Source: Gyrodactylus bullatarudis (Eukaryota > Platyhelminthes > Monogenea > Gyrodactylidea > Gyrodactylidae). From it: DNA of 64,000 bases. The position numbers were made by a program, and so were the translations under genes. Positions 8,507-52,563 of this stretch are shown piece by piece (positions within the stretch are counted from its first letter, which is position 1; each line of letters begins with the position of its first letter). Where the stretch lies: assembly GCA_012064415.1 (NCBI GenBank), contig SSNU01000307.1:1-64000 (forward strand), in the 5' to 3' direction. The notes under the pieces were generated by a model. That model was not told the DNA's origin. It saw nothing but the letters and a program-made list of their open reading frames with translations, and did no database searches.

Positions 8507-8551
8507 ATAAGAATATAGCGCTTTTATTTCGTGGCATACTCATCAGCTTAT
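8507..8551 (-). ncRNA. Hammerhead ribozyme motif in PLE repeat
   Basis: Read on the minus strand, the core elements appear in order: ATAAG (stem I), CTGATGA, GTATGCCAC (a 2-bp stem II, G-C and T-A, with a 5-nt loop), GAAA, then TAAAAGCGCTATATT (3-bp stem III AUA/UAU) and CTTAT closing stem I with 5 perfect pairs. The cleavage triplet would be AUU. Both invariant core strands are intact. Penelope-like elements are known to carry such minimal hammerheads in their terminal repeats; here it lies in a segment inverted relative to the adjacent PLE ORF. Activity is inferred only. Confidence 0.65.
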
Positions 8552-8607
8552 ACATGCCAGATTTATATAAAGAAAATGTGTACAAAATATTGGTTTCTAC
8601 ATATTGA

Positions 8608-10711
8608 AACTGAATTCAATGATGCTCTATTACGATTTTTCGTTGAATCAGGTGAATCTTTATTGAACCATAAATATGAATCCTTATGCAAAGAATTTGG
8701 GAAAAGTCTTCGTTTTCATGAAAAGGGAATCTTCAACTTCACCGATATTCAATTATCAAAGGAGCAAAAAGAAATCCTTTCTCTTGGTCCAAATTTTTGT
8801 ATCCCCAAACGTAAAAATGAAATTGAAGATAAAGGAGCCTTCGAACGTCTAGTCTATGAACTAGGTTTAACTAACAATCGGAAGGACGACTCAAATACAG
8901 AGAAGTTCAAACTTGATCTGTTGTCTATCTATAGAAGTTTTGATCGTAAACCTTTAAAACCTAGTTTACTTTCTAAGAAACATTTTGTAGCACTTAAAGA
9001 ACTTAAATCTAATGAAAACATATTCTTAACAAAACCTGACAAGGGTAAAGGGATAGTAATTATGTATAAGGATGATTATTATAAGGCAGGGTTAGATTTC
9101 CTCTCTGATGAGAGTAAATTTCATAGCACTGGGCAAGATAGATTTTCGTATACTAAACAAATGGAATCCATGGAACGTTCCATGGATAAAATAGCCAAGG
9201 GATTATTTGACAGAAGTATAATTTCTGATAAAACTAGGAATTTCATAGCTAAGAAACATACTGGGATGTCTAGATTATATCTACATCCACTAAACACATA
9301 AGATAACTGATGGGATTGTTCCTGAGATTTTCCCAATCCGGTCGATCTTGGACATGTCGTCATGTCCACAACATAATTTAGCTAAACGGTTGATAGATAT
9401 TTTAAAACCAATACATGAATACTATGCTAAATATGTTGTTAAAGATACTTTTTCATTTGTTGATAAAATTAAGGCTCAAACAAAGGTTACAAAGGTTCAA
9501 AAGAGATGATTTCATTAGATGTTAGTTCTTTATTTCCTAATGTACCAATAGAAGAAACCCTTACTATTATCAGTTCTTTTGTCGATGAACAGGGTGGTTT
9601 TGAAATGCAGAGTAAAGAAATAACAGACCTTATAAGGATCTGTTGTATAAATGTTCCTCTATCATTTCAAAACAAAGTTTTCATCCAAAAAGATGGGATA
9701 GCTATGGGTTCACCTCTTAGTCCTCTTTTAGCTGATATCTTCTTAGGCTGGTTAGAACTAAATAAAATGTCTGAAACAATAAATTCTTTTACTGATGTTT
9801 ACATCAGATATGTCGATGACACTTTTATTTTGATGAAACCTAACGTATCATCGGATGATTTTTTCTTAAAGATGAACTCTGTTCATCCAAATATAAAGTT
9901 TACCATGGAAAAAGAATCTAATGATATTTTAAGCTTCCTAGATGTGAAACTGACTAGGAAAGAAGATGGTTCAATTCAAAGAAACATTTTCAAGAAAAAG
10001 ACTGACAATGGTAAATATCTCCATTATGCCAGTTTTAGTCTTGTTTCATATAAAGTTGGTTTAGTAATTCGCCTAGGAAAGAGGATAAGAAGGATAGCAA
10101 GTCCAGAGGAAATACCTAAAGAAATAGAGAACATGAAGTCGAGTTTATTGGAAAATGGTTATCCTAATAAATTTGTGGACAAATTTATCAACTTGTCGGA
10201 TGATAGAGATGTCATTGAAAACACAGATGAAGTGGACAAGACCATAATTTTCATGAAACTTAATTTCAAAGGAGATGGTTTTAGTAATGATTTACGGAGA
10301 AAGTTAACTGATCTCATCAATCAACATTATAACAACATACAATTGAAAATTTTATTTAAATTTCAGCGATTGTTTAACCTAATTCATAAAGATTTACTGA
10401 AACCTGAAAAGAAAACTCTATTGATTTATAAATTCCAATGTGACTGTGGAGCTACATATATTGGACGTACAATTAGGAAGTTGTCAACTAGAGGCAACGA
10501 TCATCTTAAGAAAGACACAGCGGTGACCAAGCATCTAAGACAGGAACGGCACGAAGCTTCAATCTCAAACTTTTCTATTTTATACAAAAATGCAGGGGAT
10601 GACAGTACAGACGTTTGGGTGAAGGAGAAATTCTTCATTAATCGATATAAACCAAACTTATGTGTTCAAAAAAACTATTCTTATAATCTTCAACTACCTT
10701 GGCCTATGTGA
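8608..10711 (+). pseudogene. PLE reverse transcriptase with GIY-YIG endonuclease, frameshifted
   Basis: The protein shows the Penelope-like order: an N-terminal region (FLTKPDKGKGIVIMYKDDYY), the RT core with SLDVSSLFPNVPIE, GIAMGSPLSPLLADIF and the catalytic RYVDDTFIL, then a linker and a C-terminal GIY-YIG nuclease (ATYIGRT with downstream acidic/His residues, about residues 295-400 of the second part). The frame is open from before 8608 to 9301 and again, in the same frame, from 9506 to 10711, but 9300-9505 encodes recognisable PLE sequence (HNLAKRLIDILKPI, VKDTFSFVDKI) in another frame. Two compensating frameshifts therefore inactivate this copy. The apparent N terminus at 8531 translates the inverted ribozyme repeat and is unlikely to be genuine. 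Confidence 0.85.
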
Positions 10712-11707: not shown

Positions 11708-12485
11708 ATGCTTGCTGTGAACATTTTTCTGACTTTTAGTGTCACAATTGGATCTTTAGGTGCTATGCTCATGCCAAGTTTAGGTGATATGGCAAAGAAT
11801 GCTCTCGGCATGGGCGGAAGTGGAAGTATGGGAGGCTTTGGTGGCAACATGGGCGGCTACGGTGGTGGCATGGGTGGCAACATGGGAGGCTACGGTGGTG
11901 GCATGCCCGGCTACGGTGGTGGAATGGGCGGCTATGGTGGCGGTATGGGTGGCATGCCTGGCTACGGTGGTGGCATGCCCGGCTACGGTGGTGGAATGGG
12001 TGGCTACAACCCTGGCATAGTTGGTAAGCAAATTTTCGATTCCTATAATGTTAAATGGTACAAAAACTTTTTAGAGTATTTAAACATAAAATCTGAATTT
12101 CCTAATGCCTAACTTCTACTTTAGAGGCAGCAAGTTTTAGTTTGCTAAGTATGGCTATGTTGGGTGCTTGGAACTGAGGCCAACTTTGATTAGTATGGTC
12201 GATTTAGTATTAGACCGTTACAATTTTTACTAGATATTGGCTTCACTTTAATCGTTACCCTATTTTTCCAAGTCAATATTGAAACAATTTTAAATTAAAC
12301 TTTTTCAAATTACAATTCAATTAGGTGGAAATTCTTGCACTAGAGGCTGCATAATGGATCTACAACAGTGCCAGATGAAATGTGCCAACAAGTTATTGAT
12401 GACCAGCATGTGCCGAAAGAAATGTGATTTCAAAAAGACCGCTTGCAGTGCCAAATGTACTCTGACCGGAGGAATTTTGGGTTAA
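11708..12485 (+). CDS. Secreted Gly/Met-rich eight-cysteine protein 1
   Basis: Two exons, 11708-12023 and 12325-12485 (301-nt intron, G|GTAAGC donor, TTAG acceptor), give about 158 residues. An N-terminal hydrophobic stretch (residues 1-21) looks like a signal peptide. Residues ~35-104 are tandem GGMGGYG/GGMPGYG repeats. Exon 2 encodes a compact domain with spacing C-x3-C-x6-C-x3-C-x9-C-x3-C-x6-C-x3-C, followed by a short tail. The same spacing recurs exactly in the genes at 14714 and 15618, so the three are tandem paralogues. The paired CX3C layout suggests a disulfide-stapled helical hairpin; similar spacings occur in worm venom and mucus peptides, but function here is unknown. A splice-acceptor-like sequence (gcctttctag) stands 7 nt before the ATG. 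Confidence 0.8.
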
Positions 12486-13799
12486 GATACATGCGATTGA
12501 ATAAATATTTATTTTCAGTTAAAATTGGTGAAAAATTTTTCTTCTCTTGTTAATCAATTTTTCAGTAGTAGGTATCATATCAAATGACATTGACGGGTGA
12601 TACAAAGGTGTTAAAATGCTCAGAAAATGTCTATGAAAGTTTTCAACGAATTTATTTCTCGATCAGTCTGATTAGTTGATAGAATTCGAAAAGAATCAAC
12701 ATTTAAAAGTAATTTTGAAATAGTACAGTAGTTGGATCAAGCTTAGCCATCATTAGATCGTGTAATTACAATAGGCATGGAATTTTGTTTAAATCCTCTT
12801 TTAATTGGATGACAAATTAAGAATAAGATTTTTTTAGACATTTACTCCTGTTCTATGGAAATTTTAGATGGGAAAGATTAATAACTGACTGTTACTTTCG
12901 GCTTAATTGCCTGTTCCGAAAAAAAGGAATTGTAAGATATGAGAAGAGCTCAAGGTTAAAGTAGGGAATAATTGCCGCCTTCTTATTTCTCCAAGATTTG
13001 AAAGTTCACCGCAAGGGAATTGTTTTCCTTTTATTGATGTTAAAAACCCCACAGTCTCTTTGTCATTAGAATATTCATATAGACTAGCTAAGTTATAAGT
13101 CTGTTTTAACAACTTTATCCCTGGTTCTATGCATAAAAGGGTTCAAATTGATTGCAAAGTAAATCTCTGATCAACATTAAATGTAATGTCTTTTCGCTGA
13201 GTGACATTTTTCAATTAGAAATGAAATAACCAACCTCGATCATTGAATGAACGAGGCCTATCATAATTGAAAAAAAAACTTGGAGTTTTGGGAAAATAAT
13301 TCAAAATGATTTAGAAATAATAAATATTTTGAATATCCTTTTTTCTCTGGAAAACAAAATTAGCTTCCGGCTTACATTTGAGGCTATCAAACTTATCTTG
13401 TAATTGCATCATTTTATGTGTGAAATTGTTCACTTCCGTCCTTTGTTGTAAATATAAAATGGAAATAAAATTTATCTCTGATTCAAGTTTGCTTAGAGAT
13501 TGTCAAATTGAAATTCAAAAAAACATGGTGAGTTTTTTCTTAATTTTACTTGTTATTTTTCAAAAATGTAAATTTTCTTTGTTTGTATTTGCAAATTTCA
13601 AACGTGGTATTTTTCCAAATTTCCAGTCAGTATTAAGCCCATATGATCATTTTCATTTCTTTTCGTCTGTTTAGTTGATAACGAATATGTTTGATTCAGA
13701 TAGGCACATAAACACAATAAATTAAACAGTTACCACAACATAATTTTGAACAAGGTAGGTAGGAAACTGTTCAGCATAGATTGACTATAACATTGTTCA
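12486..13799. other. Non-coding spacer
   Basis: Spacer between the first paralogue and the inverted repeat. The longest open frame (13378-13674) has low-complexity composition and no homologue I recognise. No RNA gene seen. Confidence 0.5.
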
Positions 13800-14343
13800 C
13801 TTGCTACCTGACTATGTTGTCTTCTGGCTTGTATTGGTCTATCTGTAGAAAAAGAAAGAGGAGAGAAAGGTGTAGTATTTTTAAAGAATAAGTATTGTAA
13901 AAATTACAGTAATTGTTATAGTAATCAGAATTGTATTAGAGTAATAACTCTGATAATATAATTCATCATTGATTGATTAAAGTTGACAAGAAATCTGATT
14001 GGTTTAATGTTTTGATTGTACACACAAGGTTTCAAGTATCTTAAGTTTTTTGAAAAATCTCACGCCAGAAGGAGAATACGACATGTATTCGAAATATTGT
14101 GTGAGTCTAAACTATTTTTATCAGGGTAATCTAAATGTTTTTTATTCTAATCTTAATTTTAATTTTCTTTCTAGTGATGAATTGTATTATCAGAGTTATT
14201 ACTCTAATACAATTCTGATTACTATAACAATCACTGTAATTTTTACAATACTTATTCTTTAAAAATACTACACCTTTCTTTCCTCTTTCTTTTTCTACAG
14301 ATAGACCAATACAAGCTAGAAGACAACATAGTCAGGTAGCAAG
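13800..14343. repeat. Inverted repeat, 171-bp arms, ~200-bp loop
   Basis: Left arm 13800-13970 and right arm 14173-14343 are reverse complements with five differences in 171 positions. Four of the five would be G-U wobbles in a plus-strand transcript, so the RNA stem would be almost continuous. The 202-bp loop contains no convincing gene; an open frame at 14050-14262 spans loop and arm. The structure lies between two members of the eight-cysteine family and resembles neither MITE pair elsewhere in the window. Confidence 0.85.
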
Positions 14344-14713
14344 CGAAATTATGAATCTGAACTTCAGAGATACTGAGGGCTTCTTAACAACTGAAACGAA
14401 CTTTTAGGGATGAATTTTCATAGTCATCGAAATTAAATTTTGTTAATTAAAAAAGACCAACACGTTCTTTTATTTTATATTGAAAAATACATTGAGGGAA
14501 ATATATTCACAAAATTGGAACTTGGAGAAGTTGAGTGAGTCTCTAGAACATGGCTAACCCTTTTGATCCCTTTCGTTTAACCCTTCATAAAGACATAGAA
14601 CTTCTTTATAGAATCCATATTAAATCTCTATTTGGTGTCTAAAAGGAAAACTTCTAGACAAGTTAAATTCTACTGATTAGTTGGAAAGATAAACTAAAAA
14701 CTATTTCTTACAG

Positions 14714-14941
14714 CAATTAAAAATCATCGTGCCATTGGTTCTGCTACTTGCTCTATTTTCAGTTTACACAATAACTGATGCCTTCTTGATGCGTAATACA
14801 TCATGTATGGCCAAGTGTAAGGTCCAACAGGTCAAGTGTAAAGCAAAATGTGCTTTCCAGGTTATGTGGAGGGATACATGCAAGAACAGCTGTGTTCACT
14901 ACAACACAATGTGCACTTCATCTTGCTTCAACAGGTTCTAA
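14714..14941 (+). CDS. Secreted eight-cysteine protein 2
   Basis: The exon opens right after a strong acceptor (ctatttcttacag) and is open in frame to the stop, giving 75 residues. It starts QLKIIVPLVLLLALFSVYTI, a textbook signal-peptide core, then the mature region with C-x3-C-x6-C-x3-C-x9-C-x3-C-x6-C-x3-C, identical in spacing to the neighbours at 11708 and 15618 but without Gly/Met repeats. No in-frame ATG precedes the signal peptide in this exon, and I found no upstream exon that joins in frame. The start is therefore unresolved; an AUG donated by a trans-spliced leader would give exactly MQLKIIV. Confidence 0.75.
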   Translation, partial: QLKIIVPLVLLLALFSVYTITDAFLMRNTSCMAKCKVQQVKCKAKCAFQVMWRDTCKNSCVHYNTMCTSSCFNRF

Positions 14942-15617
14942 TACGACTCTGAACTCATAGCAAATCAAAGAATTGACGAACATTATAAGCAGTATTTTAT
15001 TGATTAAAAAATACATTTTCGTTACAAAACGTTTTTATTCAAAATCGGTAATCTTAATTTCAAATGAATTTCTTAATTTACAAAATCCAAGTGAGTTTAA
15101 TTTTATTATTTTTCAGTTGAACTTTGAAATATTTCTTAAAATCTAAATTACTTTCTAAGGCTGGTTGCCACCTCTTTACAAAGTTCCGACCAACTTGAAA
15201 GGAATCTCTATCTTCTCGTGATATGGTCAAATTATTAATTGACTAAGAAATATTTAATGTAACTAAATTTTTTTAGTGCTAACTGAGTGAAAAGATAACG
15301 TTTGACCTAGAATAGTTTCAAAATTTTTTTCATTTTGAGCCATTCATTTATAACTTTTTCAGTTTAGACTGAACATTTACAAACTTGTTCCTATACTATA
15401 CTGTTATAATAGTAAATAAATAATTATTTAGCAAGCATAAATTGATAAAGGTAAGAAATTGTTCCAAAGATTTGTGTTATTCGATTATGATTCAATGTAA
15501 TTTGGCGCCAAAAAAATTTCTTGAATAAATACCTTTTGAAAAAAATTTCTAGTTCTTAAATGATTGAAAATATTCAGTCATTTTACCCAGCCTTATTCAT
15601 TATTTTCCATTTTATAG
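14942..15617. other. Non-coding spacer
   Basis: Spacer between paralogues two and three, containing only short open frames and no recognised signal apart from the pyrimidine-rich ttttccattttatag just before the next ATG. Confidence 0.5.
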
Positions 15618-16446
15618 ATGAAGTCTTTCTTATTCGTTTTTCTTATAACTGGATTAGTTCTTGCTGCCCCAAAGGTTGAGCATAAACGTGAGTTCCCAAT
15701 AGTAAGAATAGTATAATTCGATAGAATAGTTAATTTAAAACCCCTCATTAGCCAAGGATGTCAAAGTAGAGGACTACGAAGATTACGAGGATGGTGAAAT
15801 CCAAAAGGATGAGGCAACAAAACTTAAAAACCCTTACCCCTCCAAGGGAATGTTTGACGGCATGAATGGCTTTGAAGGAATGAGAGATTTCGACAGCAGA
15901 AACAAATTCAGAGGAGGAGAATACGACAACGGTATGGGCTTTGGAGTGAGTTTAGAATAAACCAGAATTAATTAATTGAATATTTTCATCCTCACCTAGA
16001 ATATGGGCGGTCCCGGAATGGGAGGCCAAGGAATGGGCGGCCAAGGAATGGGAGGCCAAGGAATGGGCGGTCCAGGAATGGGCGGTCCAGGTATGGGTGG
16101 TCCAGGTATGGGTGGCCAAGGAATGGGCAGTCCAGGAATGGGCGGTCCAGGAATGGGTGGTCCAGGAATGGGTGGTCCAGGAATGGGCGGTCCCGGAATG
16201 GGTGGTCCAGGCATGGGTGGTCCAGGCATGGGCGGTCCAGGCATGGGCGGTCCAGGCATGGGCGGTCCAGGCATGGGCGGTCCAGGCATGGGTGCTCCAG
16301 GAGCTTTTAGCCAGTGTGACCATGAATGTGATATTGCCAAGGGCATATGCATGAATAACTGTTCAAAGAAATGGTTCTACAGAGAGCGCTGCAACTCCAA
16401 ATGTAATGGACGCCAATCAACATGCAAAAGCAAGTGCAAACTCTGA
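15618..16446 (+). CDS. Secreted Gly/Met-rich eight-cysteine protein 3
   Basis: Three exons, 15618-15687, 15752-15945 and 16000-16446, join in frame to give 236 residues. Residues 1-17 (MKSFLFVFLITGLVLAA) are a signal peptide. An acidic segment (EDYEDYEDGE) and a charged stretch follow; then about 20 copies of the pentapeptide MGG(P/Q)G, encoded by a 15-bp minisatellite at 16003-16295. The C-terminal domain has C-x3-C-x6-C-x3-C-x9-C-x3-C-x6-C-x3-C, the spacing shared with the genes at 11708 and 14714. The repeat-plus-cysteine layout suggests an extracellular structural, mucus, adhesive or gland product. Introns are 64 and 54 nt. An acceptor-like tttatag abuts the ATG. Confidence 0.85.
16003..16295 (+). 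repeat. 15-bp coding minisatellite
   Basis: About 20 tandem units of ATGGGCGGTCCAGGA and variants (GGCCAAGGA, GGTCCCGGA). Silent variation is clustered, with a run of GGCATG-type units at the 3' end, which suggests local unit duplication. The array encodes the Gly/Met repeat of the third secreted protein. Confidence 0.9.
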
Positions 16447-33593: not shown

Positions 33594-34846
33594 TTAGGTT
33601 GCGAGAAAAATATTGGGATTTTGACTTCAACTAAAATTTTCTCCCTCAAAACTGAACCAAGTTTAAACAAAATAGGCATCATTCGAAAGCTTATTTTTCA
33701 AGCTTTTTGTTTATGTATATTAAACATTATAAAATTTTAAAAGCATGAGCATAGCAGAAATTTTTGATACCAAAGATTTTCGTAAGATTATTGCATACGA
33801 GTTTTGCTCTGGAACTGGACCAGCAGATACCTTCAAAAGGCTCAATTCTGTTTTTGGAGATCGAATAAAGCGTTCTAATGTATTCAGATGGCATTCCGCA
33901 TTCAAAAATGGGAAATTGGATTTTGAAGATGAAGCAAGGTCAGGTCGTCCTTCAGAGATCAATCGTGATGAAATCGTTGCTGCTATCGAATCAGATTGCC
34001 ATCTATCTTCTAGAGCTCTTTCTGCTCAATTGAATGTGTCCGACCACTCAGTTTGTCGAGTTTTACGCGAGGAGAATTTCGTAAACTCATATGATGAGTT
34101 TGTGCCACACGAGCTCAATGATTCTCAAAAAAAGCGTCGAGTTGAAGCAGTCAAAAGGCTACTCCACAGGATTCAGTACGACAATTTTCTGAAGAACATT
34201 GTTACCACTGATGAAAAGTGGATTTATTTGAGTGATCAGAGTCGAAAAAGGTCATGGAAGAAAGTAGGAGATCATGTCTCTCAGCCTACCCAAAATCGAT
34301 TCGCCAAGAAGGTGATGTTGACCGTCTTCTGGACAATGAAAGGAATTGTGCACTTTGAGCTCTTGGATTATGGTAAAACAGTCAATGCTGAGCGTTATTT
34401 GTCTTACTTGAAAGAGATGGTGCTTAAACTTAGACAAAACTACCCAAGATTTGGCAGAATAACTTTTCTTCAAGACAATGCCAGACCTCATCTGGGAAAA
34501 GAGGTTAAAAAATTTTTTGAAGAAGAGAACTTTGATCTCATTGACCACCCACCGTATAGTCCGGATCTTGCTCCGTCTGATTATCACCTTTTCAGATCAT
34601 TACAACATTTCCTAAAGGGTAAAAATTTCAGATCAAAAGAGGAGGTAAAAATTGGACTTGAAGACTATTTTGCTTCAAAACCTGAAGAATTCTATGCAGA
34701 TGGTATCCAACAACTGCCAATTCGTTGGGAAAAATGCCTCAACTCTTCAGGAAACTATTTTCATTGAATGTTCATGTTGTAATGTATATAAAATATCAAT
34801 ATATGCTTAATTCATATTTAGTCCCATTACTTTTCTCGCAACCTAA
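33594..34846 (+). mobile_element. Complete mariner element
   Basis: 1253-bp element with inverted termini beginning ttaggttgcgagaaaa on each side (right end read in reverse complement), identical over ~17 bases and similar for another ~12, flanked by TA duplications at 33592-33593 and 34847-34848. It encloses one intact transposase frame. Confidence 0.92.
33745..34767 (+). CDS. Mariner transposase, intact
   Basis: 340 residues, the usual mariner length, in one uninterrupted frame. The N-terminal paired HTH region includes the GRP(S) turn (EARSGRPSE) typical of the linker between the two HTH motifs. The catalytic triad is complete: D156 in TTDEKW, D244 in LQDNARPH and D279 in YSPDLAPSDYHLF, giving the DD34D spacing that defines mariner. 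Both termini are present, so this copy could be, or recently was, autonomous. It cuts and pastes its own element at TA sites in the nucleus. Confidence 0.95.
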   Translation: MSIAEIFDTKDFRKIIAYEFCSGTGPADTFKRLNSVFGDRIKRSNVFRWHSAFKNGKLDFEDEARSGRPSEINRDEIVAAIESDCHLSSRALSAQLNVSDHSVCRVLREENFVNSYDEFVPHELNDSQKKRRVEAVKRLLHRIQYDNFLKNIVTTDEKWIYLSDQSRKRSWKKVGDHVSQPTQNRFAKKVMLTVFWTMKGIVHFELLDYGKTVNAERYLSYLKEMVLKLRQNYPRFGRITFLQDNARPHLGKEVKKFFEEENFDLIDHPPYSPDLAPSDYHLFRSLQHFLKGKNFRSKEEVKIGLEDYFASKPEEFYADGIQQLPIRWEKCLNSSGNYFH

Positions 34847-51816: not shown

Positions 51817-52563
51817 ATGCTGGAACTACACAAATTTGCTTTTATTCTAGGTGTTCTATGTAGCTTTGCTTTAGCAGCTCCATTCGACACATGTCACACG
51901 AGATGCGCAACAAATTTTGATTTTAATTCTGATGAAATTTGCTTTAAAGGATGCGACTTATTCAGACAAGATGAAAATGTCAACTGCCAGGAAAAATGCA
52001 ATCTAATATATCCTGATAAATTGAATGCATGTCTTTTCGGTTGCAATCAGAACAAAAGCTCTGAACCTAAACCTGAAGTACCACAAACGGATATTTCAGA
52101 TGAAGAAGATGCAATTTCCTCTTCATTCCCAATGATCCAAATGCTTATGCATAATTTGGTCAATCGTGTCGGTTTCGGATTTATAATACGCAAAGAAGGT
52201 GAAAATGTTTACATCTCAAGATCCAACACTCCAATGACTATAGAACATATGCTCATTCAGCATAATGAGCCTGATCGAAGAATGATTCTAGAATCACAAC
52301 AGCATGCCTGGCATAGACGTTTAGCTTGTTTCGTGAGGCACATGAGCTATCCTATTATGCTTGCACTTGGTGTTCTTTTGTTCAGTTGTATTGTTCTTTT
52401 TGTTGTATCTATTTTCTACAAACTTCGTACTGTAAGACATAGACAAATCATACGAGACGCTTCATCTCTTCCCAGATATGAAGACATTGATAAATACAAA
52501 CCAAATTACAATCTATCATTTGAGGCTGATCCATTACCCCAAAAAGAACCTATCAATGCATAA
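51817..52563 (+). CDS. TMEM59: TMEM59-family type I membrane protein
   Basis: Single exon, 248 residues. Residues 1-20 are a signal peptide (FAFILGVLCSFALAA). The lumenal part has four CX3C pairs (CHTRC, CFKGC, CQEKC, CLFGC) with 10-11 residue spacers, in the order and context of TMEM59 (CFKGCDLFR; ACLFGCNQN). One transmembrane helix (IMLALGVLLFSCIVLFVVSI) is followed by a basic and Tyr/Pro-containing tail (SLPRYEDIDKYKP). In vertebrates TMEM59 acts in Golgi glycosylation control, autophagy and Wnt receptor clustering. It diverges from TIMM22 and is followed 182 bp later by MRPL42 on the same strand; AATAAA lies near 52580. Confidence 0.85.
   Translation: MLELHKFAFILGVLCSFALAAPFDTCHTRCATNFDFNSDEICFKGCDLFRQDENVNCQEKCNLIYPDKLNACLFGCNQNKSSEPKPEVPQTDISDEEDAISSSFPMIQMLMHNLVNRVGFGFIIRKEGENVYISRSNTPMTIEHMLIQHNEPDRRMILESQQHAWHRRLACFVRHMSYPIMLALGVLLFSCIVLFVVSIFYKLRTVRHRQIIRDASSLPRYEDIDKYKPNYNLSFEADPLPQKEPINA

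Follow-up and report, generated by a model that had tools for sequence, protein, structure and literature searches.

The stretch of DNA analysed here (the window) comprises 64,000 of the 70,962 bases of contig C326 (SSNU01000307.1) of the genome assembly of the monogenean flatworm Gyrodactylus bullatarudis (77.3 Mb, 471 contigs). It carries a tandem array of three genes, A, B and C, all located on the forward strand (Table 1), whose products end in a 41-residue core with eight cysteines in the exact framework C-x3-C-x6-C-x3-C-x9-C-x3-C-x6-C-x3-C. The splice sites of the three genes were inferred from GT/AG dinucleotides combined with the reading frame. In gene A, the exon encoding the repeats and the exon encoding the core are separated by an intron of 301 nucleotides. 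For gene B, a first exon consisting of a single codon is probable. The hexamer AATAAA occurs 15 bases after the stop codon of gene A and 9 bases after that of gene C, and none is present within 200 bases after the stop codon of gene B.

Table 1. Genes and sequence features of the tandem array (positions in the window; aa, amino acids)
Feature	Position	Strand	Description and basis
Gene A	11708-12485	+	2 exons, 158 aa; signal-like N-terminus, Gly/Met/Tyr repeats, hairpin
Gene A, exon 1	11708-12023	+	Signal-like N-terminus and Gly/Met/Tyr-rich repeats GGMGGYG, GGMPGYG; open reading frame and gene model
Gene A, tandem repeats	11828-12007	+	Within exon 1; tandem-repeat detection
Gene A, exon 2	12325-12485	+	Hairpin domain and stop; AG acceptor that keeps the frame of exon 1
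Gene A, eight-Cys core	12336-12458	+	Exact pattern match
Gene B	13525-14941	+	76 aa; signal-like segment directly followed by hairpin; no repeats
Gene B, probable exon 1	13525-13527	+	One codon (ATG), then GTGAGT donor; inferred from in-phase donor scan
Inverted-repeat (palindromic) element, gene B intron	13796-14347		Arms 13796-13968 and 14175-14347
Gene B, exon 2	14714-14941	+	Signal-like segment, hairpin, stop; no repeats; gene model
Gene B, eight-Cys core	14804-14926	+	Exact pattern match; AlphaFold hairpin
Gene C	15618-16446	+	3 exons, 236 aa; signal-like N-terminus, charged linker, repeats, hairpin
Gene C, exon 1	15618-15687	+	Signal-like N-terminus; gene model
Gene C, exon 2	15752-15945	+	Charged Asp/Glu/Lys linker; gene model
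Gene C, exon 3	16000-16446	+	MGGPG repeats, hairpin, stop; open reading frame and gene model
Gene C, repeat array	16003-16302	+	15-bp unit x20 coding MGGPG/MGGQG; Tandem Repeats Finder
Gene C, eight-Cys core	16315-16437	+	Exact pattern match; AlphaFold hairpin; 1VIB matches

An earlier sequence-only reading of this locus had described three same-strand genes sharing one exact eight-cysteine spacing, with other residues almost wholly different, and with different Gly/Met repeats placed ahead of the framework in two of them (GGMGGYG-type and MGGPG-type; here A and C). This description holds, with corrections in our gene models to the exon structure and to the starts of B and C. The proposed search with the cysteine spacing, run on the window with up to three mismatches, returned A, B and C and nothing else, and 100 dinucleotide shuffles gave no match; a looser six-frame scan of the window revealed no additional eight-cysteine copy. 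Among the 33 non-cysteine positions of the core, A and B share 3 residues, A and C 3, and B and C 2. We found no support for an internal duplication of the hairpin halves (p 0.31).

A fourth member, D (125 aa), was matched by the hairpin of A in a search of the assembly (C420:654359-654496, E 0.34), and the reciprocal search with D found A at E 0.02. Its open frame encodes a signal-like N-terminus, then GGMMPGYG repeats, and lastly a hairpin whose framework is identical to that of A, B and C. Across all pairs of A-D, 2 to 7 of the 33 non-cysteine positions agree and none is common to all four; TGC and TGT codons are mixed in each member, and the net charge of the cores ranges from +5 to +7. 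A half-motif scan of the loci L009-L022 (124,981 bases, of which 106,643 belong to the terminal 99.7 kb of C420 plus the part of C326 beyond the window, and the remainder to the mitochondrial contig) gave two matches, both in D. The framework scan covered the window and the half-motif scan these loci, and each of the genome searches with the hairpin or with D scored just 1 to 3 candidates, so that four members should be read as a minimum. Another match of D (L007 on contig C28, E 0.67) was rejected, as it lies in another frame over a gene that we take to be atlastin-like.

In a profile comparison (hhalign) D matched the A/B/C profile at 93% (E 3e-7), mostly through the cysteines, and the joint non-cysteine similarity of the four members exceeded that of composition shuffles (p 0.006). 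Based on these two results, together with the shared domain order and the tandem placement, we take A-D to be old paralogues, related by common descent and not by chance, which are too diverged for analysis of the ratio of non-synonymous to synonymous substitutions (dN/dS), a measure of the diversifying selection that the sequence-only reading had suggested.

The sequence-only reading had also proposed a secreted, disulfide-stapled helical hairpin, and both parts of this proposal are supported as predictions. AlphaFold gave two helices for the hairpins of C and B, the two of the four members that were modelled (mean predicted local distance difference test, pLDDT, 84.4 and 82.9), i.e. the antiparallel two-helix hairpin that is the fold of neurotoxin B-IV. 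On an ideal helix, the 3-6-3 spacing places the four cysteines of each half at 0, 40, 20 and 60 degrees, i.e. on one face. As a prediction, the stapled helical hairpin is well supported, and the palindromic spacing 3-6-3-9-3-6-3 suggests that four nested disulfides (1-8, 2-7, 3-6 and 4-5) are probably formed. In a fold search, the model of C matched B-IV (1VIB) best, albeit weakly (E 2.3, probability 0.60, template modelling (TM) score 0.66, root-mean-square deviation 2.3 over 46 columns), the second and last match being acrorhagin I. Sequence searches of the PDB were performed with the A domain, the C domain and the A/B/C and A-D profiles, B and D entering only through the latter two. The sole match of the C domain up to E 10 was again 1VIB (E 1.4, weak), the A domain matched nothing, and neither profile found 1VIB. 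The profiles matched follistatin-like 3 (E from 0.02 to 0.12), and also lysozyme (E 0.91) and a bc1 subunit (E 5.2); these matches cover the framework in part and were considered to be due to chance.

All four members possess signal-like hydrophobic N-termini (best 10-residue hydropathy 2.1 to 3.3; that of B depends on the inferred first exon) and, judging by hydropathy, are predicted to be secreted. The segments preceding the hairpin in A, C and D consist of 30-51% Gly and 14-20% Met, and in C as many as 173 residues precede it. None of the four members has a dibasic cleavage site ahead of the hairpin, which makes a material-like role of the repeats plausible. Outside the family, two loci, L023 (1414-1794 on contig C119) and L051 (1480-1875 on C103), encode small signal-like proteins rich in Gly, Met and Pro but without the hairpin; such tails are therefore not tied to this fold. 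These two proteins have no Pfam match and their C-termini, which differ from the hairpin, resemble each other weakly (E 0.54; E 22 in a composition-adjusted comparison), so perhaps they represent a second head on a similar tail. Two other loci matching the MGGPG pattern were rejected: by eye, L043 looks like a protein whose translation in the chosen frame lacks a signal peptide, and L044 like an SmB-like protein.

We consider that A-D most probably represent a small secreted flatworm family, comprising three genes in tandem plus one or more dispersed genes, of glandular proteins in which a Gly/Met tail is joined to a hairpin head; we give this reading a probability of roughly one half. Each protein would end in a compact cationic helical hairpin, preceded in three of the four by a low-complexity Gly/Met-rich tail that probably stays joined to it. 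The proteins would be released by gland cells into a mucus- or glue-like secretion, to which the tail would give bulk or elasticity. The hairpin would act as a rugged, stable, charged head by which the secretion is anchored or linked, and the tail-less B would be a free soluble hairpin. A gland secretion is favoured by the long Gly/Met tails without a dibasic site in A, C and D, together with the tails of L023 and L051. Glycine-rich secreted proteins also occur in the gland or adhesive secretions of flatworms, including monogeneans. Several observations speak against this interpretation. Gene B lacks a tail, its model did not recover 1VIB in the fold search, and both models, built from three-sequence alignments, have predicted TM (pTM) scores of just 0.57-0.60. 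Pairwise non-cysteine similarity is mostly not above chance, with one of the six pairs (A-D) at p < 0.05. Moreover, according to a review citing Hamwood 2002, the adhesive described there, from other species, is low in Tyr, Met and His (PMC12472103), as opposed to the 14-20% Met of A, C and D; high Gly and Ala are the other marks of monogenean adhesive proteins.

The mucus and venom peptides with which these proteins had been compared have a concrete counterpart in B-IV, a neurotoxin that was isolated from the mucus of a nemertean (PMC6410017). B-IV and the other beta-nemertides (PF07822, 1VIB; mucus of Cerebratulus lacteus) combine a helical hairpin, as predicted here, with eight cysteines, as in A-D; the span from the first to the last cysteine is equal (41 residues), and seven of the eight cysteines occupy matching offsets. 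However, the framework of B-IV, as read from 1VIB, is 3-6-2-10-3-6-3, with the fourth cysteine displaced by one residue, B-IV lacks the Gly/Met tails found in three of the four flatworm proteins, and it comes from a nemertean and not a flatworm. PF07822 was the one Pfam match of C up to E 1 (E 0.25), with 11.9 bits against a curated cut-off of 21, and matched neither A nor B up to E 1, nor D up to E 10; a PF07822 search of the G. bullatarudis genome gave no match, with no positive control responding. Arg-17, needed for the toxicity of B-IV (PMC6410017), is not matched, the residue after the second cysteine being Ile in A, Lys in B, Asp in C and Met in D. Since the framework, profile-score and Arg-17 tests all failed, A-D should not be filed as B-toxins. 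A wider toxin interpretation, in which the hairpin, like the nemertean B-toxins, targets ion channels or membranes, with the Gly/Met segment serving as a spacer or propeptide, is conceivable, though we rate it as clearly less probable than a gland material. It draws on the matching cysteine offsets, on the cationic cores, on the agreement, for C alone, of the one PDB sequence match, the top fold match and the one Pfam match, and on the other fold match, acrorhagin I of a sea anemone, also a helical-hairpin toxin, one of whose disulfides connects a helix to a loop (PMC11722136).

A function in host defence, with the proteins acting as antimicrobial peptides of the flatworm surface similar to the cationic stapled hairpins of plants (alpha-hairpinins), appears unlikely. 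The members are indeed cationic (+5 to +7), secreted-looking and cysteine-rich, but they contain eight cysteines, whereas alpha-hairpinins are shorter and have two disulfides, and no alpha-hairpinin occurred among the PDB sequence matches of the A domain, the C domain and the two family profiles. The long tail, such as that of C, would be unusual for such peptides, and we know of no Gly/Met tails of this kind in alpha-hairpinins or in the kappa-KTx (CS-alpha-alpha) peptides. Both groups consist, as predicted here, of two disulfide-held helices, and most alpha-hairpinins, being stapled helical hairpins, have antimicrobial activity; the scorpion kappa-KTx peptides are shorter and have two to three disulfides (PMC11722136), in contrast to the eight cysteines of all four flatworm cores. 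That the proteins belong to the small Tim group of the mitochondrial intermembrane space, their spacing merely resembling that of a secreted peptide, is highly improbable: two helices bearing CX3C pairs and one weak profile match to a bc1 subunit (E 5.2) stand against signal-like N-termini, Gly/Met repeats, four CX3C pairs as opposed to the two of small Tim proteins, and the lack of Tim10/CHCH matches in Pfam for A, B and C (up to E 1) and of any Tim match for D.

Three queries against 5.8 billion predicted proteins led to no accepted homologue, in a search that needs shared 5-residue words and in a collection whose flatworm genome content is not known. The A/B/C alignment gave one candidate and no match, and the C domain no candidate; among the 259 candidates obtained with D, P0001 (E 1.9) is GGMMPG-rich, with no such cysteine framework seen, and was rejected. 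Weak matches to Pfam Toxin_3 (E 0.036; 14.7 bits, the cut-off being 21.5), to Pfam LELP1 (with A) and to NCBIfam Syntroph_Cxxx (with B) were likewise dismissed. Among the open-licence PMC papers listed by literature searches, none was seen to describe a comparable flatworm family. What is new here is that a flatworm joins the palindromic eight-cysteine framework to Gly/Met-rich tails; the fold class was already known.

To our knowledge, four-disulfide helical hairpins have been found in few animals, chiefly as toxins. B-IV and acrorhagin I are such animal hairpin toxins (PMC11722136). If a flatworm family combines the palindromic framework and an otherwise almost free sequence with repetitive tails, secreted materials would appear to be another use of the fold, or its original one. 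It is tempting, if speculative, to suppose that a toxin-type stapled hairpin became the cross-linking head of silk- or elastin-like Gly/Met gland proteins, B retaining the free-peptide state, and that the hairpin might go back to an ancient secretory fold of spiralians, which nemerteans subsequently recruited as neurotoxins. For the gland secretions of gyrodactylids, which are ectoparasites of fish, A-D are specific candidates. The hairpin would also be a very tolerant natural scaffold, given the lack of any invariant non-cysteine position in A-D.

Elsewhere in the window, a reverse-transcriptase frame (RVT_1; 9506-10711, forward strand) lies just upstream of gene A and is preceded by a further open frame (8531-9301); in this region (8531-10711), the C-terminal part resembles, in our judgement, the GIY-YIG nuclease of Penelope-like elements. 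The arms of the inverted-repeat element in the gene B intron are 173 nucleotides long each and 97% complementary, and an unbroken frame for a mariner/Mos1-type transposase (Transposase_1, DDE_3, HTH_48) is present at 33745-34767 (forward strand). A protein with CX3C pairs, encoded at 51817-52563 (forward strand), has no clear Pfam match and lies outside the hairpin family; it looks like TMEM59. The guanine plus cytosine (GC) content of the window is 28 to 36% across 2-kb bins; gyrodactylid nuclear assemblies measure 67-91 Mb with 31-39% GC (PMC12677651).

The mitochondrial contig C13 (14,926 bp) carries a COX1 gene with 12 in-frame TGA codons. The 14,000 bases read have an A+T content of 74%, and their long frames, all on one strand, follow the order nad2-nad1-nad3-cox1-cox2-nad6-nad5-cox3-cob-nad4L-nad4, the names being assigned by eye. 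The occurrence of AAA at a COX1 Asn position that we take to be near-invariant points to the flatworm/echinoderm code. A search with PF00379 (arthropod cuticle) gave no match, with no positive control responding, which is a weak hint against an arthropod. Gyrodactylid mitogenomes of 14.5-14.8 kb with 72-76% A+T have been described, and that of Paragyrodactylus has all genes on one strand and was read with the echinoderm code (PMC4150975, PMC7799574, PMC7800322).

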